Shown: positions 1,466 to 30,730, counted from the first letter of the stretch. The stretch: DNA of 64,000 bases from Pontiellaceae bacterium B12227 (GCA_029432775.1 JAROAZ010000005.1:62001-126000), one strand, 5' to 3'. A program made the numbers and translations. Notes: generated from the letters alone by a model not told the origin.

Positions 1466-2761
1466 ATGAAGAAACGCTTTTTTGCAAAACATGCCAAGTC
1501 CAGTGCGGCACTCGTCAGTTTAGGAATCCATGCGGTGTTGCTGCTGATTGCTCTTTCTTTTGTGGCGGTAACGGTGATCCAGAAGGAGGAAAAGAAATTC
1601 GAAGCCAAGCCGGTCAGTCGTTCGAAGATGAACCTTCGAAAGTTGCAGGTTCCGGTGAATATAAAAAAGAAAAAGGTTCAGAAACCCAAACTGCGCAAAC
1701 GTATCGTGGTGCAGCCTAAAATGAATCAGACGATGCCGGATATTAAGATGCCGGAAATTACCGGGGTGAAGGGCGGTCTGGGGAATGCGGCAGGCGATGG
1801 ATTAGGCGGAGCCGGAGCGTTAGGTTTTTCCATGCCGGAAATTGAATTGTTCGGTATCAAGGGCAGGGGCGAGAAAATTTTCATCATCCTCGATTCCACC
1901 CCCTGGATCATGTACGACGAGCTCGGCGGTATTCCGGCATATACCCTGATTAAGCAGGAGTTGGTTAAGATTCTAGGCGGGCTGAACTCCACCGTCGTTT
2001 TTAATGTGGCGGTGTATGGGCACCAGACCGGGTCTTATACAGTTTTTCCGGGGCTTGTCCCTGCCACCGCTTCGAATGTTGCAAAGGTGGAGCAGTGGCT
2101 CCATCCATTGAATGCAGTTAAGGCCGGTGGTTACGGCACAAAAACCCTGGGTCCGGGTGGCATAAAAATTGAAGGTGCTGACCTTGTTGTAAAACCGCTG
2201 AAGGGAGTGAACCATTGGAGTGAGCCTGCGATGTATGCCATGAAACAACGAGTGGATACCGTATTTCTACTGGCACATGGCTGGGGCCACTTGCTCTATG
2301 ACAAAGCTCCTCGTAAAGAATGGAGCGAAGCAAAAATGACAAGATTCAGAGAAATTGAAAAAAAGGCCCGGGCGAAACTGGCTGAGGAAAACCGGCAGCG
2401 CAAAGCAAACGGGCAGCCCGAACGTGTGCTTGTTGGTTGGTCCGTTGTAAAAGAATATTTTCCCGGTACGGAAACGCCTCCTTTACCCGAACGGCATTGG
2501 TACACGCCCAAAGAGATGGTTGAGGCATTTGTGAATCAGCGAAAAGCGAATGCGGATCAAACGCTGAAAACCAGTGGACTTGGAAACAGGAGTAAGAAAA
2601 AACAGGATAAGATTTCTCTTAATGTAGTGCAGTTTGTTCCAAATGAAGGGGCCGATGCAAAAGATGAAGCCCGTTTCAAGCAACTGACATCGCTCTTGTA
2701 TGGCGAATACCGCGCGCTGCCCGGTATGGAAGCGATTCAGTCCGCCATTTCGCCCGATTAA
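1466..2761 (+). CDS. Membrane-anchored protein: TonB-like stalk plus degenerate VWA-like domain
   Basis: 431 residues from the ATG at 1466, which follows AGAGGG; longer in-frame starts from 1304 would put the promoter inside the gene. A basic N-terminus is followed by one membrane segment (about 13-37) and VIQKEEKKF. A Lys/Pro-rich stretch and a Gly-rich linker with MPDIKMPE come next, as in TonB-like periplasmic stalks. From about residue 135, KIFIILDSTPW and the following helix-strand pattern resemble a von Willebrand A fold. The metal site appears degenerate, because DSTPW replaces DxSxS. The N-terminal 110 residues parallel those of the protein at 23424, so this is a family with a common anchor and variable periplasmic domains. 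No function is assigned. Its stop codon overlaps the convergent stop of the response regulator. Confidence 0.75.
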   Translation: MKKRFFAKHAKSSAALVSLGIHAVLLLIALSFVAVTVIQKEEKKFEAKPVSRSKMNLRKLQVPVNIKKKKVQKPKLRKRIVVQPKMNQTMPDIKMPEITGVKGGLGNAAGDGLGGAGALGFSMPEIELFGIKGRGEKIFIILDSTPWIMYDELGGIPAYTLIKQELVKILGGLNSTVVFNVAVYGHQTGSYTVFPGLVPATASNVAKVEQWLHPLNAVKAGGYGTKTLGPGGIKIEGADLVVKPLKGVNHWSEPAMYAMKQRVDTVFLLAHGWGHLLYDKAPRKEWSEAKMTRFREIEKKARAKLAEENRQRKANGQPERVLVGWSVVKEYFPGTETPPLPERHWYTPKEMVEAFVNQRKANADQTLKTSGLGNRSKKKQDKISLNVVQFVPNEGADAKDEARFKQLTSLLYGEYRALPGMEAIQSAISPD

Positions 2762-3420
2762 TCGGGATTGAGAATGCCGCTTTTATAGGCTTTGGAGATG
2801 GCGGCGGGAGCATTCTGGACGTTGAGCTTGATGTAGATGCGTTTTACAAATTCGGCGACGGTGGAGACGCCGATGCCCAACTGGTCGGCAATTTCCTTTT
2901 TCGCCAGGCCTTCTCCCAGTAGCGTGAGGATTTCCTTCTCGCGGGACGTCAGTTGAATGGCCGTTTCCTCGTTGCGCGGTCGCGTCTTTAAGGTTTCGAT
3001 GATGAATCGGGCGAGTCCCTGGTCGAGTATGGCTCCTCCTTGCATGACGGTTCGGATGCCCTGTGTGATTTCATCAAAGGAGGAGGATTTTAAGAGATAC
3101 CCTTCGGCTCCGGATTGAATGGCCTGGAGAATGTTGGCTTCCGTATCAGATTGGGTGAGGATAATGATTTTGGCGTCGGGTAGGGATTTCTTGAAAAAGG
3201 GGATCGCATCAAGTCCGGACATGCCGGCGAGATGGAGGTCGAGCAGAATGAGGTCGGCCTCTTTCCGCGTTTCCATGCTTTGTAAACTGCGCAGGGCGAC
3301 TTCGGCGGCCCCGAAGGCTCCGACCAGCTGCATGTCCTGTTCTTCCAGTAGGGAGAGTTCGATGACCTCTCGGTATTCGGGATGGTCTTCCACCACCATG
3401 ATGCGAATTTTACTTTTCAT
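2758..3420 (-). CDS. NarL/FixJ-family response regulator (system 1)
   Basis: 220 residues: receiver domain (1-125) with acidic pair E11-D12, phosphoacceptor D61 in LILLDLHLAG, T89 and K111, then a LuxR-type helix-turn-helix (156-215) containing SREKEILTLLGEGLAKKEIA. The start MKSKIRIMVV at 3420 is preceded by AGGA at good spacing. It lies 11 nt inside the end of the kinase gene, so the two are translationally coupled. Phosphorylation by the adjacent kinase should control dimerisation and DNA binding. It is a paralogue of the regulator at 28061-28720, but the recognition helix differs (STVAEFVKRIY against TTVATHVGNIY). Binding to the shared TCC-N10-GGA operators is proposed, not shown. Confidence 0.93.
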   Translation of the reverse strand: MKSKIRIMVVEDHPEYREVIELSLLEEQDMQLVGAFGAAEVALRSLQSMETRKEADLILLDLHLAGMSGLDAIPFFKKSLPDAKIIILTQSDTEANILQAIQSGAEGYLLKSSSFDEITQGIRTVMQGGAILDQGLARFIIETLKTRPRNEETAIQLTSREKEILTLLGEGLAKKEIADQLGIGVSTVAEFVKRIYIKLNVQNAPAAISKAYKSGILNPD

Positions 3421-5398
3421 AGGTCGTCCTGTTTTTGAGTCCGAATTTCCGAAGGTTGAGCTGCAGACGAATGCAGGTGCCGCCGGCCTCCGGGCTTTCA
3501 ACGGATAGCCTGGCGCCGAGCAGACGGGCGCGGCGTTTGAGTGAGGGCGGAACCCCTTGATCTATACGATCTGACATTCCGCTGCCGTTGTCCCGGATTT
3601 CCAACTGAATTTGTTTAGGAGTTGCACTCAGGCGGGTGCTGAGCCGGGTTGCTCCGGAATGGCGGCAGATGTTGATCAGGCATTCTTTGTAAAAGAGGAG
3701 CAGGTCAACCCGGGTCCGAGGTTGCAGGTGTTTGAGGACCTCTAAGCCATCGATGGATACTTCGTGCTCCAGGTCGCCAACGATTCGGTCAGCGGCCCGT
3801 TGCATGTCGACCTTCAGTCCCGTGTAGATTTCGTTGGCATCCTGCATGTTGGCAAAGTGGCGAACGGCGATGCCGGATTGTTTGGTCATGGCCCGGATAC
3901 GCTGTAGAAGGTTCGTGGTTCCTTCGGGGAGGTCGGTGGATTTTTTGATGACCAGGTCGCTCAACAAGCCGATCGTGTGGAGGTTGGCCCCCAGTTCGTC
4001 GTGCAGGTCGGCGGCGAATTGCTCCTTCATCCTATCGATCTGCTGCACCCTGATAAGTCGATCGATGAGGATGGTGAACCCGATTCCGACCGTGAGCAGG
4101 GCGGCCAGCCAGCCCATCAGGGTCAGGTTGGTTTTCTGGCGTGCATAGCGGTGGTTAAGTTCAAGCGCCACGACAGGCCGTTCGGTTTCCAGATCGTGTC
4201 GTCGAGCCAGTTGATTTAGCCATTCGCGGGTGGAGAGGATATGACCGTAAAAGTTGAGTCCATCCGTTAGCGTGGATAGGGGGCGATTCGGTGAATCAAT
4301 GATGAAATTAGCGGAGACCGGTTTGTTGAACGCGATATTTCGTCCATTGGCAAAGAGTTCGATTTCTGCGAACCCGATGCGTGTTCCGACGTGGAGCCCA
4401 TCATCAAAAATATAGGGTTCAATTGCGGTTAACCGGACAAAGCGGCACGCGGTTTCCGGGAGGTTCCATGTCATAATGGGAGCGATGTCGTAGATGTTTT
4501 GGCAATACGTATCGAGTAAAAGGACGGCATCGGAAAAATCGGGCTGTGTTGCACCTTCGACCTTCAGGTGTCGGGGAATCCCGAAATCACCGTAAAATGC
4601 CTGAGGTACCGTATCGCTTTGGTCGATTGCATGTAGATTAATCTGGGAAACGGGGTAGATGGCTCCCAAATCAAGAGTCAGGGTTGGGTGGTCGGCGACT
4701 CCGACCGAGTTCAAAAAGGCAATGCCTTTATCTCCTGAGGCTGCATCCATCAGATAGGGCACAGACCCGTCGGTTAGAAATCGCGCTCCCCATGCACTTA
4801 TGGGTTGCGCGTCGGGTACCGGCGTGGTGACAGGACGCCTCAAGGCACAGTTTTTTGATCCGCAGAAAATCAGCAATTCTGACCATTGCATGGTGAATTG
4901 CTCATCGATTCCTCTGGAGGAGAGCTGATCTGCTTCAATTCGCACCCAGGATGCAGTGGTTCCGCGGCAGGGTACAATCATTGGGGCAATACGGGGTAGC
5001 AACTTGTCCTGTTCGGTGAAGGAGGCAATTATGGAGCCGGGGTCATTTGTGCATCCGGCAATAATGCGGAACTCCAGCGGAAACCCTTCAGCCTGAAATC
5101 CTTTTTTTGTATCACGCAAGAGCGTTGGAACCAGCACGATCTCATCAATGGATATCTCCCGGCCGAGATCAACTTCAACCCACTCCGGGGAGTCGGGCGT
5201 CGCATGGGCCTCCGAACGGTAGCCATTGGCTCCGGCTCCGCTGCGTAGACTGTAACTTGCCAATTGCCCGAGTTCGGTGTCGATCTGCTCCAACCGCTGC
5301 TCCAACTGGGCTGTTGAATGTTTTTTTTGAGCAGTCGGCCGGGGGGTACAGGCCTGCGACAGAAGGAGCGCTATAGAAATGATGGTGGTTTTCTGCAT
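3410..5398 (-). CDS. Sensor histidine kinase with periplasmic discoidin-like domains (system 1)
   Basis: 662 residues from MQKTTIISIALL at 5398, preceded by AAAGGA; earlier in-frame ATGs lack a ribosome site. A signal peptide (1-18) is followed by a periplasmic region with a short coiled stretch (30-45) and two F5/8C-like jelly-roll regions (about 45-180 and 185-365; note EWVEVDLGREISIDEIVLVP). A membrane segment (426-448) leads to a HisKA_3 dimerisation helix with His466 in LHDELGA, then an ATPase domain with N576, DNGSG at 603-607 and a late Gly-rich box. Discoidin folds commonly bind carbohydrate, so it probably senses a sugar outside the inner membrane and phosphorylates the coupled regulator. 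It has a same-length paralogue at 28730-30730. Confidence 0.9.
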   Translation of the reverse strand: MQKTTIISIALLLSQACTPRPTAQKKHSTAQLEQRLEQIDTELGQLASYSLRSGAGANGYRSEAHATPDSPEWVEVDLGREISIDEIVLVPTLLRDTKKGFQAEGFPLEFRIIAGCTNDPGSIIASFTEQDKLLPRIAPMIVPCRGTTASWVRIEADQLSSRGIDEQFTMQWSELLIFCGSKNCALRRPVTTPVPDAQPISAWGARFLTDGSVPYLMDAASGDKGIAFLNSVGVADHPTLTLDLGAIYPVSQINLHAIDQSDTVPQAFYGDFGIPRHLKVEGATQPDFSDAVLLLDTYCQNIYDIAPIMTWNLPETACRFVRLTAIEPYIFDDGLHVGTRIGFAEIELFANGRNIAFNKPVSANFIIDSPNRPLSTLTDGLNFYGHILSTREWLNQLARRHDLETERPVVALELNHRYARQKTNLTLMGWLAALLTVGIGFTILIDRLIRVQQIDRMKEQFAADLHDELGANLHTIGLLSDLVIKKSTDLPEGTTNLLQRIRAMTKQSGIAVRHFANMQDANEIYTGLKVDMQRAADRIVGDLEHEVSIDGLEVLKHLQPRTRVDLLLFYKECLINICRHSGATRLSTRLSATPKQIQLEIRDNGSGMSDRIDQGVPPSLKRRARLLGARLSVESPEAGGTCIRLQLNLRKFGLKNRTTYEK

Positions 5399-5515
5399 GG
5401 TTCCTTTTACCATAATTAAGTCAAAAAACACGATGATTGGCTGTATGAAACGGTTCAAGGTTGCCATCTCTCTTATTCGTATCATTAAAATACGAAGAAA
5501 GAAACAGGACGACTG

Positions 5516-5559
5516 TCCCCCAAATGGGGGAATGACCGACAGTCAGGACCTGTTACCTT
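5516..5559 (+). promoter_or_regulatory. TCC-N10-GGA operator and -10 box (site 2)
   Basis: TCCCCC-AAAT-GGGGGA at 5516-5531 is a perfect 6+6 palindrome, nested in an outer inverted repeat GACTGTC (5511-5517) and GACAGTC (5538-5544). TACCTT begins at exactly +23 from the site end, giving a start near 5566 for the gene at 5627. On the minus strand TATTTT lies at +24, so the same site could also control the divergent kinase gene. Confidence 0.7.
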
Positions 5560-5626
5560 ATACGTGAAAAAAGAACCTGAAACCAGTCGGGGCATAGTGT
5601 GTCGCGATTCATAAAAGGAGATGAAG

Positions 5627-8137
5627 ATGAAAGCTAAGATCGTAAGTGCAATTGCGGTGCTTGCCATAACGATGATGAGCCATGGGGCAACCTATACGTG
5701 GAATGGCAGTGCTGCCGACGGGGATTGGACCAATGCGTCCAACTGGGATACCAACGGCATTCCGGCAAGCCTTACCGCCACGAGTACCGATGAGGACACC
5801 ATTATATTTGATGGCGCCAATATGCCCACAGCGAATCTGGCAACCTTCACCGACCTGAACTGGGGTTATGATAGTGCGACCCTGATCTTCAATAGTGGCG
5901 GAACCTTTGAACTGGATATGTCAACCAGTCGGAACGCTGCTCCGATTATGAGCGAAAACCGGACGTTTTTAACGGTTGGCGACGGCACGGGGCCTACGAA
6001 CGATGTGATCGTTAATATCAGCAACATGGCCATGTTATCGCGCCACAGCAATGTGACGGCAGACTATACCGTCAATTCAGATGGCGTATTGAATTTTGAC
6101 GGAAACCTTGAGACGTATCAGCAAGACACAAAAAAGGCCTCATTCACCATTCATGGAGGAACGGTTTCGGCGGCGGGATATGTTGGTACAGGAACGATGG
6201 CTCTTGAATCGATTGAGTTTGCCGCGTTGGATGCAGCGTTCACTGCTGAAATTGGAGGCGAGTTTTCCGACTTCGCAGCTGTACAGGCCGATGCGAACGG
6301 CTTGTTTATCAACAACTCGGGCGGCGTACTGGAATTCACCACCAATGGAACCCATTTCACCGTACGTGCGGTTTTTTCAGCGCTCACCCCCGTGATTAAT
6401 GTTTCCACGAATGCCGGGGTGCTTCCGCTGGAAGTGGTATTCGATGGATCGGGCAGCACGCCAAGCGAAGACATTGTCGCGTATAACTGGGATTTCGGCG
6501 ATGGCAACACAAACAGCGGCGGCGTGGTCACGAATACCTACACGACGGATGGTGAGTTTGTCGCTACGCTGACGGTACTGGATGCCTCAAGCAATAGTAT
6601 GAGCACAACCGTTTCGATTGATGTTATTGGGCCGGCAACGAACATAACGCTGGTTGCGGATTCCACAAGTTCCAGTACGGCCTTTTATGGCTCCAGTGTT
6701 GAAAAACTATTGACCGACACTTTTGAATACGATCCGATGGATCCGACCGCCACGCTGCCTTCCCTGGTTTTCTCAGACGGTTTCCACGGGAACGACGCCA
6801 GTGGGACCAATATTCTCAGTTTCACGCTCTCCAATGCCTACACCACAGTTTCTGCATACCCTGTGATTGGCGTTGATCTTTGGGGCCGCAATTCAAATTT
6901 TGACCGCGATGATAATTTCGACGTGATTCTCTATAACGGGGATTATTTTACTGAAGTTGGGCGGGTGGAAGGGATTGCGATCCCGGATAGTGCTGTGGAG
7001 CCGTATACCCGCGCCCTGATCGACACGTTGGCGGTGGGTACCACCTTTGACCGGATGCAGATCATCGGCCACCATGCCCAATTTACGCTGACGGAAGTGC
7101 GCTTGGCAGCAGTGTGGGGAGAACTTGCAGAAGTAATCGCAGATATCAGTGTTTCGGCTGCAGTTGGAAACCCTCCGCTGGAGGTAGTTTTTGATGGATC
7201 GGGAAGTATCGTCATTAACGGACCCGCGACCTATGACTGGGACTTTGGTGATGGAAACACCAACAGCGGCGTGGTGGTAACAAATACCTATGTTTCAGAC
7301 GGAGTTTACACGGCCACACTGACCGTCTCGGATGCTCTGGGGAACAGCAACAGTACGACCACGGTCATTGAGAGCTATTATATGCCGGAAAACGTGGTCT
7401 ATTCCTCCAGCAAACCTGCAACACCGCCAGCGGTAAGCTCAATGGATCTGGGGCAGACCGCATTCCTGAGTGTGACCAATACGGGGGTCTGGGACGATGC
7501 CCGGGCGTATCCGGACACGGCTTTGTTTGACGGGGCAGTCGGGACAACCGGAACCTGGTTCCACACGGATGCCTCGGTCACGATCGCCTTCGATACCTCC
7601 GCCTACACGCTGGGCTATGATATTTCCCGGATCGATACAGTCTTTGGCGGGAATGCCGGAGCGGGTGGCCGTGCCAATCAGGGTTACAGTGTGACGGTGA
7701 CCTATATGGATGACTCGACCGAAAAGATTCTGGGAAAGAAGACCTGGGAGCCGAACAGTCCGGCCTCGTTTTGGACGAAGGTATCCTTCTCAAACAGTGT
7801 CGGTGGCGTCATTGCCTCCGGTGTAAAAGCAGTCACATTCGCCGAGTTCGATGCCGCCGGTGCGGCCGGGTTCGGTGATTACACGATCGCTTGCGAGTTT
7901 GATATCTTTGGTGTCGGCACCGAACCGACGGATGGACCGACGCTCGGCATTACCGCTGGATCCCTGGTGTGGACCACCCCGACGGTTAAGGATTATGACG
8001 TCGAATACCGGGAATTGCTGGATCAGGGTGATTGGGGTATTTACACCAATGTAACCTCTACTCCGCCGGAAACGAGCGTTGAGCTTCCAATAGGGCGCTA
8101 TGATGCAGAGTTCTTCCGGGTCATTGAATCGGAATAA
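5627..8137 (+). CDS. Secreted protein with type-I module, two PKD domains and C-terminal FYR-type domain
   Basis: 836 residues. The ATG at 5627 is 6 nt after AAAAGGAG; the ATG at 5621 directly abuts it and is less likely. A signal peptide ends near SHGA (about residue 20). Residues 21-250 are the module beginning YTWNGSAADGDWTNASNWD that also opens the next two proteins. Two PKD domains follow (about 258-335 and 512-588), with FDGSGS and WDFGDGNTNSG. Between and after them are beta-sandwich regions resembling carbohydrate-binding domains (about 340-510 and 595-770). The C-terminal 60 residues carry YDVEYRELLDQGDWGIYTNV and end FFRVIESE, a tail type shared by several proteins here in place of PEP-CTERM. 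No catalytic motif is seen; substrate binding or surface display is inferred. Confidence 0.85.
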   Translation: MKAKIVSAIAVLAITMMSHGATYTWNGSAADGDWTNASNWDTNGIPASLTATSTDEDTIIFDGANMPTANLATFTDLNWGYDSATLIFNSGGTFELDMSTSRNAAPIMSENRTFLTVGDGTGPTNDVIVNISNMAMLSRHSNVTADYTVNSDGVLNFDGNLETYQQDTKKASFTIHGGTVSAAGYVGTGTMALESIEFAALDAAFTAEIGGEFSDFAAVQADANGLFINNSGGVLEFTTNGTHFTVRAVFSALTPVINVSTNAGVLPLEVVFDGSGSTPSEDIVAYNWDFGDGNTNSGGVVTNTYTTDGEFVATLTVLDASSNSMSTTVSIDVIGPATNITLVADSTSSSTAFYGSSVEKLLTDTFEYDPMDPTATLPSLVFSDGFHGNDASGTNILSFTLSNAYTTVSAYPVIGVDLWGRNSNFDRDDNFDVILYNGDYFTEVGRVEGIAIPDSAVEPYTRALIDTLAVGTTFDRMQIIGHHAQFTLTEVRLAAVWGELAEVIADISVSAAVGNPPLEVVFDGSGSIVINGPATYDWDFGDGNTNSGVVVTNTYVSDGVYTATLTVSDALGNSNSTTTVIESYYMPENVVYSSSKPATPPAVSSMDLGQTAFLSVTNTGVWDDARAYPDTALFDGAVGTTGTWFHTDASVTIAFDTSAYTLGYDISRIDTVFGGNAGAGGRANQGYSVTVTYMDDSTEKILGKKTWEPNSPASFWTKVSFSNSVGGVIASGVKAVTFAEFDAAGAAGFGDYTIACEFDIFGVGTEPTDGPTLGITAGSLVWTTPTVKDYDVEYRELLDQGDWGIYTNVTSTPPETSVELPIGRYDAEFFRVIESE

Positions 8138-8151
8138 ACCAGAAGGACCCT

Positions 8152-8190
8152 CTGGCCTCTTTGATGCCTCAGGGAGGCCAGTCTCTCTCT
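8152..8190 (+). terminator. Hairpin between 5627 and 8225 genes
   Basis: CTGGCCTC (8152-8159) pairs with GAGGCCAG (8174-8181) over 8 bp around a 14-nt loop, followed by a pyrimidine run. It is a plausible terminator or attenuator; the downstream T tract is interrupted by C. Confidence 0.55.
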
Positions 8191-8224
8191 TTTCAGAGGA
8201 AATAACTAAAAAAGGAAAGCATCG

Positions 8225-9058
8225 ATGAAACGAAAACTGGAAATAATATGTGTAGTCCTGCTCTCAGCAAGTGTTGCTCAGGCCGCTGTGTATACATGGA
8301 ACGGAAGCGCTAATGACGGCGATTGGACTACTCCAGCAAACTGGGACGGCGGATTGGTTCCTGCAAGTCTGACTGCTGCGGATGCTTCGGAGGATACGAT
8401 TATATTTAGCGGTGCGAATATGCCTACGTTGAATGTGGCTACATTCGCTGCGGCGGGTTATGGCGCGGATACCGCCACCATGATCTTTAACAGTGGTGGA
8501 ACATTTGCTCTGGATTTCTCAACCAGTCAGAACGCTGCTCCGATTATGAGCGAAAGTCGGACGTTGTTAACGGTTGGAGACGGTGTCGGAGGAGGAACGG
8601 AAGATGTGGTGGTGTATATTAGCGGGATGCTTGACCTGTTACGTCATACCAGCAGCACCGCTACGTATTTGGTTAAGTCAGATGGGACACTGAACTTTGC
8701 TGGAGATATCGGCCTCTATAATGACAATAATAAAGATGGCGTACTTCAGTTGGATGGCGGTGCCATTGTTGCAACCGGTACTATCGATGCTAGGTTCAAT
8801 AATATAGCGGAGAGTTATGTCGAATTCCTTTCGGAGGGAGGGGCTATAACAGCTGCTTATGGCGGGGCTTATGCTGACTTTACTGCGGTTCTTGCCGATG
8901 CAAGCGGTAATTTTATCGATACGAATGGAGGCGGACTCGAGTTCACGAATAATGGAACAACCTTCACGGTAACAGCCATTCCGGAGCCGGCTACGCTGGG
9001 ACTGGTCATGGCCTTCGGCGGCGGGATCCTGTTTGTTCGTCGTATTATTCAAATGTAA
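8225..9058 (+). CDS. PEP-CTERM protein consisting of one type-I module
   Basis: 277 residues; AAAGGA lies upstream of the ATG. After the signal peptide (to about residue 20, SVAQAA), the protein is almost only the YTWNGSANDGDWTTPANWD module (21-255). It ends in a PEP-CTERM signal with IPEPATLGLV, a hydrophobic segment and VRRIIQM. A stretch of about 45 bases near 8519 is almost identical to one near 5923 in the preceding gene (encoding NAAPIMSE), which points to recent duplication or gene conversion. Role unknown; the module may be a beta-helix or solenoid surface domain. It has no recognisable operator of its own, only the hairpin upstream, so it may be read through from 5627. Confidence 0.85.
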   Translation: MKRKLEIICVVLLSASVAQAAVYTWNGSANDGDWTTPANWDGGLVPASLTAADASEDTIIFSGANMPTLNVATFAAAGYGADTATMIFNSGGTFALDFSTSQNAAPIMSESRTLLTVGDGVGGGTEDVVVYISGMLDLLRHTSSTATYLVKSDGTLNFAGDIGLYNDNNKDGVLQLDGGAIVATGTIDARFNNIAESYVEFLSEGGAITAAYGGAYADFTAVLADASGNFIDTNGGGLEFTNNGTTFTVTAIPEPATLGLVMAFGGGILFVRRIIQM

Positions 9059-9065
9059 ATACCAT

Positions 9066-9094
9066 AGCTCGGAATCCTGTGCCCGGGCTTTTTT
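9066..9094 (+). terminator. Terminator after 8225 gene
   Basis: AGCTCGG (9066-9072) pairs with CCGGGCT (9083-9089), with one G-T wobble, and runs into six Ts. An overlapping 8-bp inverted repeat TCCTGTGC (9075-9082) and GCACAGGA (9104-9111) could form an alternative structure. Confidence 0.75.
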
Positions 9095-9167
9095 GTGTCT
9101 GGAGCACAGGACGCAAATCACATCAGGTTGACTTTTGGACTCAGGTTGAACTAAAGAGGCACATGGG

Positions 9168-12100
9168 ATGCAGCGCGGACCGTTCGGCATGAAAAAAACT
9201 TCCAGACCCAGGAAGTCCGTTTTGCAGTTTTTTCCAATCCTTGGAAGTTTGCTGGTCTGCTCAGCCGCGGTGGCCGCTGACTATATCTGGAATGGCAATG
9301 CCGGTGATGGGAACTGGACGAACACCGTAAATTGGGATGGCGGATCAGTACCGGTAAACCTTTCCTCAGCGACCACGACAGAAGATAACATTATCTTTGA
9401 TGGGGATCATATGCCCTCATCGAACATCGCTGAATTCCTGTCGGGGTATGGCAATGATTCGGCCACGATGATTTTCAAGCGGGGCGGGACGTTTAGTATG
9501 GATCTGTCTTCCAGTGCGCAATCCGGTCCGGTTGCAAGCGAAAGCCGGACGTTTCTAACGGTGGGCGACGGCATTGGTGGCGGGACCGGGGATGTCGTTG
9601 TTGAGGTGAACAATATGGCGACCCTGCTGCGCCATAGCAGTGTCTCGCTGGGCTATCGGGTAAATTCTGACGGAACCCTGCACTTCAACGGAAGCATGCG
9701 GTTGTATGCAGACAATAATAAACACGCCACGCTGATCCTGGACGGTGGTTCGGTTGTAGCCACGGGATATGTAGGCTCCCGTTTTAATATGCAGGCAGAC
9801 AGCTCCATTGAATTCCTTTCGGAAGGCAGTTCTTTTTCTGCGGCTTATGGTGGGGCATTTACTGCGATTGCAGACGTTCAAGCCGATGTTGCTGGTGTGT
9901 TCGTGAATTCGACCGCAGGCGATCTTCAATTCACGGATAATGGATCCACTTTCACCGTCACGGCGGTTCCTGGTGAAGACGTTGACTCGAATGAAGCAAT
10001 ATTCGGATTGTTTGACGGCTTGGGTGCTCCGGCGGCTTTAAGCAACGGAACGCTGACGCTAATTGCGTCGGACGATGCGTGGGTACCCAGCACAAATTTT
10101 CTGGTCGATTGGGACGAATCCATCGTCTTTGATGCAGAGTTGCAATGCCGTGAAAGCGGTCTGGATTGGGACATCCGGATCGGCAAGGGCGGGCAGCTCT
10201 ATTCCATTGTTTTCCCCGGGCTTGGAGAAGTGGTGCCTCCGTCCAGTCTGGATGTTTCTGCGTGGAATGATGAGGTTTGGCAGATGACCGTTGTGAATAA
10301 TGAACTGCTGGACAACAAGTATGATGATGAAATGCAGGGCTATGGCGATGCCAACACGCACGGCTCAGGAATGTATTATAAACCGTCGCTCGATCCGGAC
10401 ATTGAAAAACCGCTGTACTGCCCGCGGTTGGCGGAATGGGCTGATGCTTCGAACCGCACCTATTCCGTGCTCAACATTGGCTTGATTCCGAACCCGACCG
10501 TAAAACGCAGCGAACCCTTGATGTATACACAGTACCGCGATATGGGGAGCGGGGTGGTTGAAATCACCCACATCATTTATAACTTTGGCGACTACATGTA
10601 TACGCAGGCATCCTTTCCCTGGGGCGGGCTGCGCATGTCCAAGCTGCCCGGTCAGATTCGCGGCGTTGCAGGGGGCGGCTACGAAGCATGGGACTACGAT
10701 TTCAGTGATGGTGGAAATTACAGCATCAAGGATTCCGGCGGATGGTATGCCCGGGTACAGGACCGCTCAAACATCAAGAGTCTGGCGACCGCATATGTTC
10801 ACGGCATGGATCAACACTATACGGATCAAATGGCCATGAGCACATCCGACCCCGATCGGTTCCAGAGTTCGGGAACCGTTTTTGTTCCCGGCGACACCAA
10901 TCACGAAGGGCGCGATTTCGGTGTCCTGTCGCAGAGCACCCGGTTTTACCTGTATCCGGGAAAGGCTTTTTTCCGGCGGGTCTATTTAGTGATGGGGATG
11001 TTGGCCGAGGTGCAGGCAACGTCGGAACAGTTGGCAACCGAAACTGATTATGGCTGGATCGATGTCAGCGAAAACAATGCCCAACGTATGCCGCTCTATG
11101 AAACATCGATGGACGGACAGGCGATGCTGACGCATACCGCGCCAAGCTCGAATGCCGTGGCACTGGCGGAAAGCTATGCAACACCGGTGGAGGGTTCGCA
11201 GCCGTTGATTCTGATGAAGGATGCGGAATCAGGAACCTGTTTTATTACCACCGATCACTATGCGGCCAGCAGCCGGTTTAAATTTGAAAACATGTATGCA
11301 AAAACCAACGAACTGTATGAAACCTATCAGGATCGGGTGGTCTACCGCATGAATGACGGGCGGAGTGAATGGCTCGATCTGCTGGGGTTCGTGCTGCCCG
11401 TGGATGAAGCGAAACTGACCGGCGAGTGGAACCGGCTGTCCACCGTGCTCGGCAAAGATATTCTTTTTGTGCCCGGCGAAAAACCGGGCGCAGATGAGCT
11501 GATGATCTGGACCGGAAGTCCCGAACCGCCGGATGCCAACCATCCCCCCGAATTCACTGCGGACGTCTTTACCGGTGCAACGGAAGAGAACGTTGAGTTC
11601 AGCGGAACCCTTTTTGCAACGGATGCAGAGGGCGACACGCTGACCTTTGAAAGCGTGTTCGGCCCGGCCTGGTTGACTATCGATGCGAACGGCGCGATCC
11701 ATGGAACACCGGGCACATCGGATGTCGGTTACAACATGTGGCAGGTCCGGGTTTTGGATGGCAACGGCGGATCGGACAGCGCGATCCTTTATGTCAATAT
11801 CTCCCGTTCGCTGACCGAGGCGTTGATTGGACATTGGAAGTTTGATGACGGCTTCGGAACGGTGGCGGTTGACTCCTCTTTCAACGGTTGGAATGGAACG
11901 GTGGCCGGAGGGACCTGGGTGGATGGCTATGACGGCGGGGCGCTTGCGTTTGATGGCAGCAGTTCCATCGTGACCCTTCAGCCGGAAACATTCAGTAGCG
12001 TCAGCAATGAAATCACGATCGCGCTCTGGGTCTATGGAGACGAATCCCTGCCGGTGAATAATTCAATCATTTATGCGGAAGACGGCGGCGGTGATCGCGT

Positions 12101-12668
12101 AGTGAATGTTCATCTTCCATTCAGCAATGGAACCGTTTTCTGGGATGCCGGAAACAGCACGGGATATGATCGTCTCGGCAAAACGGCCAACGATGCATCG
12201 AACTATAAAGGGCAGTGGAACCAGTGGGTGTTCACAAAGAATGCCGCAACCGGAAATATGGATATCTATGTGAACGGCACGGTCTGGGCGAGCGTTTCCG
12301 GCAAAGAACGACCCATGATTGGTGTGGTTGAAGCCGCCATCGGCCAGCAGTATCCGGGGATCATTGATGATGTTCGAATCTATAACCTAGCACTGACTGG
12401 TGAAGAAGTCGCGAATCTCTATAGCGAGAGTCAGTGGGTGCATATTCCTGAATTCGTCGCAGGTATTTCTACCTCGCACAACCAGTTCAACGTGCAGTTT
12501 ATTGGAACTCCAGGGAAGCACTATCGCGTCGAATATAAAGACGATTTAATGTCATCGAATTCCTGGCAGGTGGTAACGGATATCGTTTCGTTGGCAACCT
12601 CGCCTGTGAACGTGTCGGCTCCCATGACGAACAGCGCAGGATTTTATCGTGTAATCTTCCTCCCGTAA
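9168..12668 (+). CDS. Large secreted protein: type-I module, unidentified central domain, He_PIG, LamG
   Basis: 1166 residues. The ATG at 9168 follows AAAGAGG at 8-nt spacing. A signal peptide (to about 37, AAVAAD) leads into the type-I module YIWNGNAGDGNWTNTVNWD (38-265). Residues 270-785 are a Trp/Tyr/Gly-rich beta domain that I do not recognise; it could be a lyase- or hydrolase-like beta-sandwich. Residues 790-880 match a He_PIG/cadherin-like Ig fold (PPEFT, TEENVEFSGTLFATDAEGDT). Residues 884-1085 are a LamG/concanavalin-like lectin domain starting LIGHWKFDDGFGTVAVDSS. The last 75 residues form the FYR-type tail (YRVEYKDDL, GFYRVIFLP). It is probably a surface or secreted polysaccharide-binding or -cleaving protein. 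No promoter of the shared type is seen upstream. Confidence 0.8.
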   Translation: MQRGPFGMKKTSRPRKSVLQFFPILGSLLVCSAAVAADYIWNGNAGDGNWTNTVNWDGGSVPVNLSSATTTEDNIIFDGDHMPSSNIAEFLSGYGNDSATMIFKRGGTFSMDLSSSAQSGPVASESRTFLTVGDGIGGGTGDVVVEVNNMATLLRHSSVSLGYRVNSDGTLHFNGSMRLYADNNKHATLILDGGSVVATGYVGSRFNMQADSSIEFLSEGSSFSAAYGGAFTAIADVQADVAGVFVNSTAGDLQFTDNGSTFTVTAVPGEDVDSNEAIFGLFDGLGAPAALSNGTLTLIASDDAWVPSTNFLVDWDESIVFDAELQCRESGLDWDIRIGKGGQLYSIVFPGLGEVVPPSSLDVSAWNDEVWQMTVVNNELLDNKYDDEMQGYGDANTHGSGMYYKPSLDPDIEKPLYCPRLAEWADASNRTYSVLNIGLIPNPTVKRSEPLMYTQYRDMGSGVVEITHIIYNFGDYMYTQASFPWGGLRMSKLPGQIRGVAGGGYEAWDYDFSDGGNYSIKDSGGWYARVQDRSNIKSLATAYVHGMDQHYTDQMAMSTSDPDRFQSSGTVFVPGDTNHEGRDFGVLSQSTRFYLYPGKAFFRRVYLVMGMLAEVQATSEQLATETDYGWIDVSENNAQRMPLYETSMDGQAMLTHTAPSSNAVALAESYATPVEGSQPLILMKDAESGTCFITTDHYAASSRFKFENMYAKTNELYETYQDRVVYRMNDGRSEWLDLLGFVLPVDEAKLTGEWNRLSTVLGKDILFVPGEKPGADELMIWTGSPEPPDANHPPEFTADVFTGATEENVEFSGTLFATDAEGDTLTFESVFGPAWLTIDANGAIHGTPGTSDVGYNMWQVRVLDGNGGSDSAILYVNISRSLTEALIGHWKFDDGFGTVAVDSSFNGWNGTVAGGTWVDGYDGGALAFDGSSSIVTLQPETFSSVSNEITIALWVYGDESLPVNNSIIYAEDGGGDRVVNVHLPFSNGTVFWDAGNSTGYDRLGKTANDASNYKGQWNQWVFTKNAATGNMDIYVNGTVWASVSGKERPMIGVVEAAIGQQYPGIIDDVRIYNLALTGEEVANLYSESQWVHIPEFVAGISTSHNQFNVQFIGTPGKHYRVEYKDDLMSSNSWQVVTDIVSLATSPVNVSAPMTNSAGFYRVIFLP

Positions 12669-12680: not shown

Positions 12681-12724
12681 TCCTGCAAATAAGGGATGGA
12701 CCGGATATGCATTTGGTCTACTCT
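12681..12724 (+). promoter_or_regulatory. TCC-N10-GGA operator and -10 box (site 3)
   Basis: TCCTGC-AAAT-AAGGGA at 12681-12696 keeps the outer TCC/GGA but has weaker inner arms (3 of 6 match). TACTCT starts at exactly +23, inside TCTACTCT. The transcript would start near 12731, about 27 nt before the GH95-like gene, and should cover the operon to 21264. Confidence 0.7.
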
Positions 12725-21538: not shown

Positions 21539-21582
21539 TCCCTTAAATGGGGGATAGATACCTAGCCTGAAACCGGTAAATT
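21539..21582 (+). promoter_or_regulatory. TCC-N10-GGA operator and -10 box (site 4)
   Basis: TCCCTT-AAAT-GGGGGA at 21539-21554 (4 of 6 arm positions) is followed by TAAATT at exactly +23. The start of transcription would be near 21589, about 56 nt before the sulfatase ATG at 21645. Confidence 0.75.
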
Positions 21583-23183: not shown

Positions 23184-23423
23184 AACTGTTAACAGGGAAA
23201 CTACGAAATGGATCACAAGGTAAGCCCATTTGATATAATGTATCCTTTAAATGTGGAAAATATACCACCGCTTAGGCAGAACGACATTCTGTCATGAGCT
23301 ATAATAGATTGTGAAATTCGGGCGAATAGGAAGTCTGATAGTTGCTGCAACGGTATGTTTGAGAGAACGCCGGCAGAAGAGATGGATTAATTTTGGTAGT
23401 ACGGCCTATAAAGGAGAGATGAT

Positions 23424-25274: not shown

Positions 25275-25310
25275 TCCAGTTAAGTTTCACAAGCGCGGTA
25301 TTTCTGATGC

Positions 25311-25354
25311 TCCTCTAAATAGAGGATATGAAGGAAATGCGATGGGGCTATACT
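25311..25354 (+). promoter_or_regulatory. TCC-N10-GGA operator and -10 box (site 5)
   Basis: TCCTCT-AAAT-AGAGGA at 25311-25326 is a perfect 6+6 palindrome. TATACT starts at exactly +23 and is the best -10 match of the set. The transcript would start near 25361, 26 nt upstream of the GH115 start. Confidence 0.82.
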
Positions 25355-25386
25355 CTTGTTTTGTATATTAAATTCAGGAGTAGACC

Positions 25387-28029
25387 ATGCGTATCTGTAG
25401 GACTTTGATCGTAGCCGTCACCATGTTTGCGATCGGCACATGTGCGACGTCGGCGGCCGTGAGAATCAACGGCGACACCCCGTGGGTCGTGATGGAGGCG
25501 GACTTTGAAAACCCCGCCATTCAGGAAGCCATCCGCGATGCAGAGCGCGATTGGTATAAAGTGTTCGGCTATCCGCCGGTGATTTTTAAGAACGATACCC
25601 GATCATCCTGGACGGGGCCCGTGGTGCTCTTCGGATCAGCAAACAACACGAAGAGGCTGATCGATAGCCAGTTGCCGGAAGGCGCGGAGCAGCACCGGCT
25701 CTTTTTCGGAAAGGTGAAGCAGAATAACGCCATTATCGCTACGGGATCGGACACCCGCGGAACCATATTTGCCATCTATACCTTTTGTGAACGGGTACTC
25801 GGCATTGATCCCATGTATGTTTTTACGGATCACGTTCCGAAAAAGCACCGGGAGATCACGTTGTCCCGCTCGATGGAGTTTGTTTCCAAAACACCCACCT
25901 TCGAAAACCGAGGCTGGTTTATCAACGATGAAGAGCTGCACGACGGAATGCACCGCGACCCGCTCGGTGGAAATGTGATATCGATGGAGTGGATGGACAG
26001 GATCATCGAAACGCTTCTGCGCTGTAAAGGGAATATGCTGATCCCCGAGTCGTCCCCTTTTCCGGACGCCACGGTATATGACCTATGCAAGCGGCGTGAT
26101 GTGATCATCACGTTCCACCATATCGATCCCTGCGGGATCAACATGATGCATTGGCCCGAGAATGTGCCGTTCTCCTACATTACGCATAAGGAGATTCTTG
26201 AAGATGCCTGGCGCAAGTCGGTGAAGGTGCTGGCCGATAAGAAAGTGGCTTGGATTGTCGGATTCCGAGGGGAGAGCGACGGAGCCTTCTGGAACAGCGA
26301 TCCGGCGGCGCCGAAGGATGATCAGGGCCGCGCAGATGTGATTTCCGAGGCGATGCACAAGCAGGTGGAAATTATCCGCGAGTTTGATCCGGATGCCACC
26401 ATTGTTGCCGCGCTCTGGAATGAGCTGGGCGCATTTTACAATAAAGGCATTTTGAAGGTTCCGGAAGGGATCTGCAAAATGTTTGCCGACGACGGTCGCG
26501 GTTATATGCGCGACAAGGGGGACGGATCGGATCTGGATGAGGGCGATGGGCTTTACTATCACGTCCAGATGATGATGAATACACAGAATCGCACCTCCGA
26601 AATGGTTCCGCCGGCGCGGATCTACAAAGAGCTGAGGCGCTATGTCGAACGGGGTGCCACGAAGTATGCCATCATCAACGTGAGCGGAATCCGCCCGGCG
26701 GTGATGTCTGTTGAAGCAATTATGGATTTCCTATGGGATGCCGAACCGACGTTGAGTCAGGAACCCGAGGCCGCCATGACGGACTATCTGAATGCATGGC
26801 ATGCGAAAACCTATGGACCGCAACTGGCGGAGCAACTGACTGAACTCCGTTTGCAGTATTACCAGATTCCCTATATGCGTGAATATATGCCGAATCCACA
26901 CCGTTGGAGCGGGGCCCGCGGTGAACATCTGATGCACTACCAGATTCAGGAATTGCTTAAGCGATACGGCAAGTCCATCAGGAAGGGGGAGGATATTGCT
27001 GCGATAGACCAGTTTGCCGAGCGCTTCAGGCAGGCCACGGCACCACTGGCCGAAACCGCTGAATATATTCCTGTGCTGTGGGAAGCCACCAAACAGTTGG
27101 AGAAGGAAATCCCGGTTGACCGCAGGTGTTTTTATCAAGCGCACTTCACCTATCAGGTGGCTGTGCATATGTATTCAAGTCGCGCTCTGGCCATTGTGAC
27201 CGATGCGGTTTCGCAATACCTAACCGATCGCGATCCGCAGGCGTTTGCCACGCGCATTGCACCGGCTGTCGATGAAATTGAAAAGGTGATTCACGAGGCG
27301 CACAAGGCCGAATACGGTATCTGGGATACCATGTTCATGCACGTTCGCCTGATGGATATATGGCGCACCCGGCTGATGCTTAAGCAGACCATTGCCGAAA
27401 TTGAAGGAAAGCCGTTCACCTCGTCCTATCGCGGATATATGAACGGAAGTTTCTGGGGTTCAGCCCAGGCTTATATGGATCATGGGGACGGAGTCTTTCC
27501 CTATTTCTATAAATCTTCAGGCCGTGGCCTGGAGGTGATTGAGAGTGGGGAAATTGAAGCCATAGAGAAGCAGAAGCTGGACGCAAAACGGCAGACACAA
27601 TCAAAAGCTGCTTTGGAGGCTGCTCCGATCACGGAGATCCGCTTTAACTCCGACCTGGAATACATTGTAGTTCCGAATGGGCTGAAGAAGGGGGCGCTGA
27701 TCTGGACAGACCGCAAGTATAGGGCTCAGTCGATTCCTCCGGAGCTGGAGGGAGCAACCTACATCCAAACCCCGATGGTGGATCGCAGCAATGAAAAGAA
27801 CGATCTCATCGCTTTTACGCTGAAAAAGGACGCAACGGTCTACATTGCGCTGAAGGAAGGCGAGGACCGCCCCAAATGGCTTGCGGATTGGGAGAAGACC
27901 GATGGTTTGCTGAATGCTTCTAATAAACTGATTTGCTACCGCAGGAATTTCAGCCGGGGAGGCTCTGTCGTGCTCGGCGGTAGCGGTGGAGCCTCCTGCA
28001 TGTATTCGGTTGCGATTAAAGAAAAATAG
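25387..28029 (+). CDS. GH115-family alpha-glucuronidase
   Basis: 880 residues; AGGAG precedes the ATG at good spacing. The signal peptide ends near TSAAV. GH115 marks are the N-terminal GYPPVIF and GPVVLFGSANNT region, the hallmark ENRGWFINDEE near 176, then FRGESDGAFWN and ALWNELGAFYN in the TIM barrel, and a helical segment followed by a C-terminal beta domain. Characterised members remove glucuronic or 4-O-methylglucuronic acid from xylan or arabinogalactan side chains. Here it would release uronic acid outside the cytoplasm. It has its own shared-type promoter and converges on system 2 (31 nt between stops). The match to the family is by motif and order; the exact glycan is not known. Confidence 0.88.
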   Translation: MRICRTLIVAVTMFAIGTCATSAAVRINGDTPWVVMEADFENPAIQEAIRDAERDWYKVFGYPPVIFKNDTRSSWTGPVVLFGSANNTKRLIDSQLPEGAEQHRLFFGKVKQNNAIIATGSDTRGTIFAIYTFCERVLGIDPMYVFTDHVPKKHREITLSRSMEFVSKTPTFENRGWFINDEELHDGMHRDPLGGNVISMEWMDRIIETLLRCKGNMLIPESSPFPDATVYDLCKRRDVIITFHHIDPCGINMMHWPENVPFSYITHKEILEDAWRKSVKVLADKKVAWIVGFRGESDGAFWNSDPAAPKDDQGRADVISEAMHKQVEIIREFDPDATIVAALWNELGAFYNKGILKVPEGICKMFADDGRGYMRDKGDGSDLDEGDGLYYHVQMMMNTQNRTSEMVPPARIYKELRRYVERGATKYAIINVSGIRPAVMSVEAIMDFLWDAEPTLSQEPEAAMTDYLNAWHAKTYGPQLAEQLTELRLQYYQIPYMREYMPNPHRWSGARGEHLMHYQIQELLKRYGKSIRKGEDIAAIDQFAERFRQATAPLAETAEYIPVLWEATKQLEKEIPVDRRCFYQAHFTYQVAVHMYSSRALAIVTDAVSQYLTDRDPQAFATRIAPAVDEIEKVIHEAHKAEYGIWDTMFMHVRLMDIWRTRLMLKQTIAEIEGKPFTSSYRGYMNGSFWGSAQAYMDHGDGVFPYFYKSSGRGLEVIESGEIEAIEKQKLDAKRQTQSKAALEAAPITEIRFNSDLEYIVVPNGLKKGALIWTDRKYRAQSIPPELEGATYIQTPMVDRSNEKNDLIAFTLKKDATVYIALKEGEDRPKWLADWEKTDGLLNASNKLICYRRNFSRGGSVVLGGSGGASCMYSVAIKEK

Positions 28030-28060
28030 CAGGGATCCAACGATCCACACAACGAACCGG

Positions 28061-28720
28061 TCAGTTCGTGAAAATACCCATACGGAAGGCCTTGGCCACT
28101 GCTGCGGGGGCGTTCTGGACCTGGAGTTTTTCATAGATATTGCCGACGTGGGTCGCGACGGTGGTGATGCTGATACCGAGCTGGTCGGCGATCTCTTTTT
28201 TCAGCAGACCCTCAGCCAGAAGCGAAAGGGTTTCGAGTTCCCGTTCCGTTAGCATATTTCCCACTTCGTTTTCTGGCAGTTTGGTCTGTAGCGTATTGAG
28301 GATGAATTTGGCGATATTTGCATCCAGCGAAGCTCCCCCGCCGTTCACGACACGAATTCCTTCGGTAATATTTCCGACCGTTGCAGACTTCAGCAGATAT
28401 CCGGCTGCGCCCTGCGAGATGGCCTGGAGGACATCGGATTCGTTATCGGATTGGGTCAGCACAATCACTTTTGAGTCGGGGATGGATTTTTTAAAATAGG
28501 GCAGAGCTTCCAGGCCGTTAATGCCTGGAAGATTCAGGTCCAGCAGGATCACATCGGGAACCAGTCGAAGGGAACGGTCCTGCAGGCTCCGAAGCGCTTC
28601 CTCGGCGGTGCCGAACTGATTGCCGAGTTCGATGTCTTTTTCTTTGCCGAGGGCGAAGGCTATGATTTCACGATAGTCCGGGTGGTCTTCCACCAGCATG
28701 ACACGGATACTTTTTTTCAT
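28061..28720 (-). CDS. NarL/FixJ-family response regulator (system 2)
   Basis: 219 residues: receiver with E11-D12, D61 in VILLDLNLPG, T89 and K111, and a LuxR-type helix-turn-helix (about 157-215, ERELETLSLLAEGLLKKEIA). AAAGGA lies before the ATG, 9 nt after the kinase stop. Length and spacing of key residues are identical to the regulator at 2758-3420, and both end in the same helix start, VQNAPAA. The difference in recognition helix suggests distinct or overlapping DNA targets. It is likely phosphorylated by the adjacent kinase. Confidence 0.93.
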   Translation of the reverse strand: MKKSIRVMLVEDHPDYREIIAFALGKEKDIELGNQFGTAEEALRSLQDRSLRLVPDVILLDLNLPGINGLEALPYFKKSIPDSKVIVLTQSDNESDVLQAISQGAAGYLLKSATVGNITEGIRVVNGGGASLDANIAKFILNTLQTKLPENEVGNMLTERELETLSLLAEGLLKKEIADQLGISITTVATHVGNIYEKLQVQNAPAAVAKAFRMGIFTN

Positions 28721-28729
28721 GGTAGTCCT

Positions 28730-30730
28730 TTATTTGCGGAGATTCCGTTTTTTGATCTGGAACCGGAGATTAACGCTTGTTCCGCCTGCAGGCGGGCTTT
28801 CAATCGTGAGTTTGGCATTAAGCAGCCGGGCTCGGCGTTTGAGCGATTTCGGTGGTTCTGTGACCCCGGTGCCGTTGTCGGTAATGAGCAGATGGATTGT
28901 TTTTGCATTGGCGGTGAGTCGGGTGGTGATTTTGGTGGCCTGTGCGTGGCGGCAGATGTTGACGAGGCACTCTTTATAGAAAAGGAATAAATCGATGCGG
29001 GTTCGGGGCTTCAGCCGGTCCAGGTAGGTTTCTCCTTCGATCGAGAAGTCGTGTTCAAAGTTGGTGATGATACGATTGGCGGCGCGCTGCATGTCGTGCA
29101 CGAGTCCTATGTAAAGATCATCGGCTTCGAGTATGTTGGTGCAGTGGCGGATGGCGGTGCCGGTGCGTTCGGTCAGTTCTCGGATGCGCCCGAGCAGCAT
29201 CTTCCATTCTGTCGGCGAGTCTTCGGCCCCTTGTACGCAATCGCTCAGCAACCCGATGGTGTGGATGTTGGCTCCCAGCTCATCGTGCAGGTCGGCGGCA
29301 AAGCGTTCTTTGATTTTTGCGATATCGCGCTCTCGTTTCATCCGGTCGAGCAGCACCGTGATGATAATACCAACAGCAAGCAGGGCCGCCAGCCATCCCA
29401 TCCGGCGCAGGTTTGTTTTCTGGCGGGTGTAGCGCTGTTGCAGTTCATTTGCAACAACAGGACGTTCGGTTTCAAGATCGTGCCGTCGTGCCAGCTCCAG
29501 CATCCAACTGCGGATGGGGAGGATCTGCCCGTAAAGGTTCTTACCATCGGTTAACGCAGCTAATGTCCGATCGGGAGTGCTGGCCTCGAAATTGGTAAGG
29601 ATGGATTTTCCTTGTGCAACATTCCGACCATTGGAAAAAAGTTCAATTTCTGCAAACCCGATCTGGGAACCGCTTCCACGCGGTTCGGTGCCGATATAGG
29701 GTTCAAGGGCAATCAGGCGGACATAGCGGCAAACGGTTTGGGGGAACCCGAGCATGATGATCGGACCTACCTCGAAGACGGAATCCTGCTGGAATTCGAG
29801 CAGTTGTTCGGCATCTGAAAAATCTGCTTGGTTGGCTCCTTCCAGAACCACCTTTTGCGGGATTCCGAAGGTGGCCGGAGTGGAGTGGGGGACGGTATCG
29901 CTGAGATCGGTAGCGTGCAGATGGATGCGGTTGATAGGATACGGCTCACCGAGGTCAATGTTCATGGTCGGGTTTTCCCCGATGCCCATCTTGCTGACAA
30001 AGGCGATGCTTTGTTCGCCCTGGAAGGCGTCCATCAGGTAGGGGACAAAACCATCCACCGCAAACCGGGCTTTCCGGGAGTTGCCTTCGCCTTTTCCTTT
30101 GGACGACGTATGCACGGGTTTGCGGAGTGCCACATTTTCCTGCCCGTTGAAAACCATGACTTCCGCCAGTTCCATATCATATTTTCCATCCCATGCACGT
30201 GGCGACAGGTCGGTGGCCTCTACCCGAAGCCAGGAGGCCGTGGCGTTGCAGGAGACCACTACAGGGGCAATGCGCGGCAACAGGTGGTCTGCCTTGGTGA
30301 AGGTGGCGATAACGGTGCCGTTCGTATCCGCCCCGAAGCCTGCAATGATTTTAAACCCGAGCGGGAATCCATCCGCCCGGAAGCCCGATTTGGTGTCGCG
30401 CCAGATGGAGGGAACCAGTACGATTTGGTCAATCGGGGTTGTTTCGCCGAATTCAATTTGAATCCACTCGGTTGCAGATGGGTTTGGGTGGCTCAACGAG
30501 CGGTAGCCGACCGGTCCCACTCCGCCGCGTAAGCTATAATGGGCCAACTGGCCGATCTCCGAATTGATGGCCGCCAGGCGGCCTTCCAACTGGGTCAGGG
30601 ATTGTTTTTGCACACCATACCGCAGTCCTGCCTCGGTATCGGCCTTATCCGTGGCCTGGACAATACCGGCAGTCAGTACAACGGCGGCTCCAATGCCGGC
30701 ACAGATGGCTGTGGTTCGTAACATATCCAT
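28730..30730 (-). CDS. Sensor histidine kinase with periplasmic discoidin-like domains (system 2)
   Basis: 666 residues. The N-terminal hydrophobic stretch (5-26, ending VQAT) is a signal peptide or anchor. Two F5/8C-like regions (about 60-195 and 198-380) carry EWIQIEFGETTPIDQIVLVP and ENVALRKPVH; the second membrane segment is 443-462. His482 lies in LHDELGAN, with N591, DNGTG at 618-622 and a degenerate last Gly box (ESPPAGGTS). The paralogue at 3410 aligns over the full length, including the linker before the membrane (RHDLETERPVVA). It probably senses carbohydrate in the periplasm. The start is 30730 or 30724; neither has a clear ribosome site. A terminator separates it from the gene upstream. 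Confidence 0.9.
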   Translation of the reverse strand: MDMLRTTAICAGIGAAVVLTAGIVQATDKADTEAGLRYGVQKQSLTQLEGRLAAINSEIGQLAHYSLRGGVGPVGYRSLSHPNPSATEWIQIEFGETTPIDQIVLVPSIWRDTKSGFRADGFPLGFKIIAGFGADTNGTVIATFTKADHLLPRIAPVVVSCNATASWLRVEATDLSPRAWDGKYDMELAEVMVFNGQENVALRKPVHTSSKGKGEGNSRKARFAVDGFVPYLMDAFQGEQSIAFVSKMGIGENPTMNIDLGEPYPINRIHLHATDLSDTVPHSTPATFGIPQKVVLEGANQADFSDAEQLLEFQQDSVFEVGPIIMLGFPQTVCRYVRLIALEPYIGTEPRGSGSQIGFAEIELFSNGRNVAQGKSILTNFEASTPDRTLAALTDGKNLYGQILPIRSWMLELARRHDLETERPVVANELQQRYTRQKTNLRRMGWLAALLAVGIIITVLLDRMKRERDIAKIKERFAADLHDELGANIHTIGLLSDCVQGAEDSPTEWKMLLGRIRELTERTGTAIRHCTNILEADDLYIGLVHDMQRAANRIITNFEHDFSIEGETYLDRLKPRTRIDLFLFYKECLVNICRHAQATKITTRLTANAKTIHLLITDNGTGVTEPPKSLKRRARLLNAKLTIESPPAGGTSVNLRFQIKKRNLRK

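Follow-up and report, generated by a model that had tools for sequence, protein, structure and literature searches.

Tandem discoidin-fold sensor kinases, their NarL-type regulators and predicted palindromic operators in a polysaccharide gene cluster of Pontiellaceae

The DNA analyzed here (the window, 64,000 nucleotides of a Pontiellaceae genome, corresponding to C162:62.0-126.0 kb) contains two sensor histidine kinase genes, each adjoined by a gene for a NarL-type response regulator, all on the minus strand: RR1 (2758-3420, 220 aa, recognition helix VSTVAEFVKR) with HK1 (3410-5398), and RR2 (28061-28720, 219 aa, recognition helix ITTVATHVGN) with HK2 (28730-30730, 666 aa). Both pairs and their common gene order had been noticed in an earlier sequence-only reading and are confirmed at 2758-5398 and 28061-30730; the HK1 start at 5398 adopted there corresponds to M30 of a longer ORF that opens at 5485. 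In pairwise alignments, the kinases are identical at 335 of 633 positions (53%) and the regulators, which align without gaps, at 125 of 217 (58%). Orthologs of RR1 and HK1 (78% and 83% identical, respectively) adjoin each other in B12219, and those of RR2 and HK2 (86% and 88%) are found in B1224. The equal spacing of D61 and K111, previously listed among the likenesses of the pairs, is indeed present in both regulators; however, the two residues are invariant in all 18 aligned regulators, so the spacing is generic to receiver domains and was rejected as a sign of a special RR1-RR2 relationship.

The sensor regions of HK1 and HK2 yield only sub-threshold Pfam matches to F5/8 type C, of about 26 residues, and 52 of the 64 family members match F5_F8_type_C. 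An AlphaFold model of HK2, built from the 64-sequence alignment, has a mean pLDDT of 88.2 (89.8 for the periplasmic part alone, pTM 0.84), and a Foldseek search with the periplasmic model retrieved F-lectin, the tandem CBM32 of ZmpB and neuropilin b1b2 as the top matches. The model thus supports two tandem discoidin/CBM32 folds ahead of the membrane segment, predicted at residues 70-197 (30140-30523, minus strand) and 198-380 (29591-30139, minus strand); structure prediction had been suggested as a check on the discoidin-like regions, and the two beta domains obtained agree with that proposal. By alignment to HK2 and its model, the corresponding tandem region of HK1 would span residues ~83-393 (4307-5239, minus strand). 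A sequence search of the PDB with the sensor profile gave nothing significant (best E-value 0.32, a fucolectin-related protein), so the fold call rests on the prediction and the Foldseek matches. F-lectins and CBM32 modules have the same fold as both sensor domains but are lectins or enzyme modules rather than sensors, and at 10-15% sequence identity the likeness is one of fold. Sugar binding by the HK1 and HK2 domains is plausible but putative.

Each kinase has one strong membrane segment after the sensor (residues 444-462 in HK2, 29345-29401 on the minus strand, hydropathy 2.23; residues 456-474 in HK1). The core that follows combines a HisKA_3-type DHp region with a conserved histidine and HATPase_c: the Pfam matches in HK1 and HK2 (E-values 1e-3 to 2e-5) fall slightly under the cutoff, and both a profile match (E-value 2e-15) and a fold match relate the core to DesK. 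The predicted phosphoacceptor of HK2, H482 in LHDELGAN (29285-29287, minus strand), is invariant in the 64 members. In both RR1 and RR2, Response_reg and GerE score well over the Pfam cutoff, that is, a receiver is followed by a C-terminal GerE/LuxR helix-turn-helix, as in NarL-family partners of HisKA_3-type kinases; the view that a separate NarL/LuxR-type regulator stands beside each kinase is thus supported. The region around the HK2 phosphoacceptor, FAADLHDELGAN.HTIGLLSD (29240-29299, residues 478-497), is nearly invariant among 12 paralogous kinases of one genome. Because of this near-invariance, cross-talk between the paralogous pairs may occur, with phosphotransfer perhaps uninsulated.

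In the hybrid two-component systems (HTCS) found at polysaccharide utilisation loci of Bacteroides, sensor, kinase and regulator are fused and the sensors are propellers. HK1 and HK2 resemble these systems in being local, polysaccharide-linked periplasmic sensing kinases with many paralogs, one per locus, a situation that recalls the expansion of the HTCS family in Bacteroides (PMC3404733). They differ in the tandem discoidin sensor and the separate NarL-type regulator: kinase, receiver and AraC-type output are not joined in one protein but lie in separate genes, with GerE as the output domain, and Pfam finds no propeller (Reg_prop/Y_Y_Y) match in HK1 or HK2, in line with the earlier suggestion of a design unlike the propeller hybrid sensors. 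DesK/DesR and VraS/VraR, which pair HisKA_3 kinases with NarL-family regulators, share the type of kinase core and regulator but lack the discoidin sensor and have other signals and other operators.

The discoidin-sensor design recurs outside the window. Across all loci compared, 138 homologous kinases were found, a count that includes duplicate records of the same genomes, and 128 of them have an adjacent NarL-type regulator. The genome of the window itself contains 22 matches to HK2, among which 12, HK1 and HK2 included, are close members (46-55% identity to HK2), nearly all with an adjoining regulator. The relatives come from Pontiellaceae, other Verrucomicrobiota MAGs and Rhodopirellula-type planctomycetes. 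HK1/RR1 and HK2/RR2 are thus members of a large family in marine polysaccharide-eating bacteria and no special pair. A strong match is present in 10 of 289 sampled genomes of the phylum, so the family is patchy there; with four candidates scored per genome, copy numbers in this sample are lower bounds. In more distant relatives encoded in this genome, a kinase of the same type is joined to a PA14, Reg_prop/Y_Y_Y or F5/8C sensor, and one such Reg_prop/Y_Y_Y kinase also has a separate regulator. At L016:4944-10964, two discoidin kinases, one close and one remote (29% identity), lie back to back with their regulators.

Upstream of the operon that is divergent from the kinase, a 16-bp palindrome of the form N6-AAAY-N6', followed by a TAGGCA-like sequence, was recognized, first between genes of the window. 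Counted over the window and the first nine paralog loci, perfect (6/6) palindromes with TA after them and a loose -10 have a density of 0.281 per kb in intergenic DNA vs 0.005 per kb within genes. The stretch from kinase to divergent gene was then scanned in 79 distinct loci, with dinucleotide shuffles as controls: 53 confident sites were found (4.9 expected in shuffles), 36 passed the strict cut (0.35 expected) and 29 have TAnnnT 22-23 bp downstream (none in 20 shuffles); 26 of the 79 stretches scanned have no confident operator. TAnnnT lies downstream of 33 of the 36 strict sites at 22, 23 or 24 bp (14, 15 and 4 sites, respectively), with 0-2 sites at any other offset. If TAnnnT is the -10 element (bases -12 to -7), the palindrome is centred at -42.5 or -43.5, which bears out the earlier placement of an operator near -42.5; on this computed spacing from a predicted -10, the operator abuts the -35 position, the arrangement of a class II activator. 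A single operator consensus for all paralogs was considered and rejected, the TCCTnn form of the window being missing from most other paralog loci.

Within the window, several predicted operators have TAnnnT at 22-23 bp. Between HK1 and the gene at 5621 lies a predicted RR1-type site, TCCCCC-AAAT-GGGGGA (5516-5531; TAnnnT at 22 bp on the plus and 23 bp on the minus strand), which recurs in B12219 beside the HK1 ortholog. Sites of predicted RR2 type, on the plus strand with one exception, precede the 1304-2761 gene (TCCTGT-ATAT-GCAGGA, 1329-1344; TAnnnT at 23 bp) and, with TAnnnT at 22 bp in each case, the GH115 gene at 25387 (TCCTCT-AAAT-AGAGGA, 25311-25326), the 30830-33598 gene (TCCTAC-AAAC-GTAGGA, 33723-33738, minus strand), the gene at 33971 (TCCTCT-ATTT-GCAGGA, 33894-33909, weak, 4/6 pairs), the GH116 gene at 47427 (TCCTTC-GAAT-GTAGGA, 47377-47392) and the PEP-CTERM gene at 59874 (TCCTCT-ATAT-AGAGGA, 59764-59779), the last of which recurs unchanged over all 16 bp at the promoter of the B1224 ortholog. 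Another weak plus-strand operator (TCCTGC-AAAT-AAGGGA, 12681-12696; 3/6 pairs, TAnnnT at 22 bp) stands before the GH95 operon. The first of the RR2-type sites falls within the longest ORF reading of the 1304-2761 gene, so the true start of that gene is probably 1403 or 1466, not 1304. The site before the sulfatase at 21645 (TCCCTT-AAAT-GGGGGA, 21539-21554, plus strand), with TAnnnT spaced as at the strict sites, is RR1-like in sequence, although the gene belongs to the RR2 module by synteny, a counterpoint to the module split described below. Sites that combine a TCCCCC half with an RR2-like half lie at 68366 and 76318 on the window's numbering (C162:130366 and 138318); promoters with RR1-like and RR2-like halves could be under dual control or bind heterodimers. 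A sequence at 23243 (TCCTTTAAATGTGGAA) that looks operator-like by eye was rejected, with 2/6 pairs and no -10 at the correct distance.

The half-sites are common to orthologs and differ among paralogs, and each form goes with a particular recognition helix: TCCTGT with YTTVDTHVAH (five loci), TCGCTC with FTVATHIRH, TCAGGG with KTVETHIRH, TCTACC with GTV[KA]THIRH, CCCTCT with TTVADHVR and TCCCCC with STVAEFVKR of RR1. Over 51 loci, operator distance tracks helix distance (Mantel r 0.23, 0 of 10000 permutations). In RR2 numbering, the strongest associations link residue 190 to base 1, residue 189 to base 5 and residue 186 to bases 3-4; TC or CC at the first two bases was preferred in the search for sites, so base 2 is uninformative. 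The three peak associations persist at 0 of 400 when shuffling is confined to receiver-domain clades, a stratification that removes relatedness only in part. Residues 189, 190 and 193 align with K188, V189 and K192 of NarL, which contact bases in the NarL-DNA structure. Lacking a divergent neighbour, RR2 itself is outside the 51-locus set; we assign its operator from one orthologous promoter, that of the adjacent 922-aa gene, as it reads in four genomes, those of the window, B1224, B12219 and G005 (TCCT(AC/CT/AT/CC)-AAAC-GTAGGA), together with synteny, and the assignment should be read as a prediction. A NarL-type recognition code, in which residue 190 would set base 1, residue 189 base 5 and residue 186 bases 3-4, making the target predictable from sequence, with two-half-site promoters in nested modules perhaps bound by heterodimers, is a tentative proposal that falls somewhat short of even odds; it concerns a single family that has roughly a dozen paralogs in each genome.

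The sites are also local. A search of the 6.3 Mb genome with the strict RR2-type pattern gave nine matches, which fall at seven places; six of these lie within C162:63.3-145.0 kb, the seventh being a paralog's own operator, and the reversed pattern, searched as a control, has no genome match. The RR1-type pattern has three matches: those at 5516 and 21539, and a third that belongs to a further paralog locus of this contig. These data bear on the possibility that an unlinked regulator binds the palindromes and that their tie to the neighbouring NarL-type regulator reflects shared locus ancestry only. Flanking DNA is indeed also common to orthologous loci, and the association test leaves some relatedness in place; yet the associations peak at the DNA-facing positions of the NarL-type helix and persist in within-clade permutation, every family locus with a clear site has its regulator too, and the strict sites are confined largely to the cluster. 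Such a regulator is, accordingly, the least probable of the explanations considered.

The gene neighbourhood was resolved by tblastn of every gene in C162:60-146 kb against three contigs. Orthologs of HK1, RR1 and the genes at 5621, 8225 and 9168 lie together on contig C227 of B12219 (52-84% identity), where the HK1/RR1 ortholog occupies its own contig with only these three companions. Nearly all other genes, including those of the region past the window, have orthologs on contig C118 of B1224 around HK2/RR2, among them GH95, GH115, GH116, most sulfatases and esterases and the PEP-CTERM protein at 59874, and TCCT-type operators are present at several of the orthologous promoters. Given this split, 2758-12668 is a separate module inside the HK2/RR2 cluster, consisting of HK1, RR1 and three plus-strand surface-protein genes: a secreted PKD-repeat protein (5621-8137), a PEP-CTERM surface protein (8225-9058, TIGR02595 over the cutoff, 84% identical to its B12219 ortholog) and, as the last gene, a LamG/Ig-domain secreted protein (9168-12668). 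In the sequence-only reading, the two systems stand on either side of the enzyme operons and serve them together. The pairs are neighbours with related operators, the 21539 site (TCCCTT...GGGGGA) before an enzyme-cluster sulfatase resembles the RR1 site, and the mixed half-sites beyond the window also lean that way; against this, HK1/RR1 and the three surface-protein genes are unaccompanied by the enzymes in B12219, the enzymes travel with HK2/RR2 in B1224, where no HK1 ortholog was found, and most enzyme promoters have TCCT sites. Joint control is thus rejected by synteny as the main reading and appears unlikely.

The HK2 cluster encodes GH95 twice, GH29 twice, GH115, GH116 twice, sulfatases and esterases, a set that suggests a fucose- and glucuronate-containing sulfated polysaccharide as the substrate, its exact identity being deduced from the enzymes. 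Upstream of HK2, with a terminator-like hairpin between, lies the RR2-module gene for the 922-aa secreted protein (30830-33598, minus strand). Four large secreted proteins encoded in the cluster (9168-12668, 33971-36373, 54110-57352 and 57361-59586) have no catalytic match in Pfam, are kept in B1224 or B12219 and are candidate new enzymes or binding proteins.

Across the paralog loci, the first genes of the kinase-divergent operons encode secreted repeat proteins that belong to a single large family, and a PEP-CTERM surface protein is the second gene in 20 of 51 loci vs 9 of 443 other ORFs (examples are 8225-9058, 59874-60677 and the paralog loci L118-L159). The discoidin domains might accordingly sense a non-food target, such as surface proteins or an exopolymer made by the cell itself, and serve cell-surface coordination rather than feeding. 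The usual neighbour is a surface protein, the sensor domains are about as conserved among paralogs as the kinase core, which would be odd if the glycans differ, and Pontiella is reported to make sulfated glycosaminoglycan-like exopolymers (PMC7356697). Degradative GH115 and GH116 genes preceded by RR2-type sites and the sugar-binding modules among the closest folds argue the other way, so that surface sensing, the most serious of the alternatives, seems less probable than the sensing of polysaccharide fragments.

Fold, pairing, operator geometry, covariation, locality and synteny together favour, with a probability of roughly three in four, the reading that each pair is a local two-component switch with a discoidin sensor, its own palindrome and its own gene cluster. 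In the scheme that we infer for ligand, direction of signalling, phosphotransfer, dimer binding and activation, the inner-membrane kinase would expose its two tandem discoidin/CBM32-fold domains to the periplasm, where binding of a polysaccharide fragment would alter the activity of the DesK-type core. Phosphate would pass to the adjoining NarL-type regulator, as the protein families suggest, and the regulator, presumably as a dimer, would bind the 16-bp palindrome centred at -42.5/-43.5, abutting a poor -35 box, and act, judging from this geometry, as a class II activator. The recognition helices and palindromes appear to have diverged together among the paralogs, so each pair would act mainly on its own cluster: RR2 (TCCTnn-AAAY) would govern the ~80 kb cluster for a sulfated fucose/glucuronate-type polysaccharide, and RR1 (TCCCCC-AAAW) the separate three-gene surface-protein module inside it.

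That Pontiella has histidine kinase and regulator genes close to GH and sulfatase genes has already been noted (PMC10880615); the openly licensed papers searched yielded no account of the discoidin sensor or of the operators and regulons. PrsK/PrsR, which with RpoN controls PEP-CTERM proteins in floc-forming bacteria (PMC9850573), likewise links two-component regulation to PEP-CTERM surface proteins; the promoters described here, in contrast, show a -10 of sigma-70-like type, and their presumed regulator belongs to the NarL type. How Kiritimatiellota and Verrucomicrobiota, with their very large sets of sulfatases and GHs, choose among polysaccharide genes seems largely undescribed in the open papers searched. 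If the present reading is true, a tandem-discoidin kinase would flag a locus, the palindrome would flag the promoters of the local regulon and the regulator helix would predict the palindrome. Regulons open to direct testing would then be available in anaerobes that are difficult to handle genetically, as would a naturally occurring set of matched regulators and operators in which to follow the divergence of DNA specificity among paralogs.
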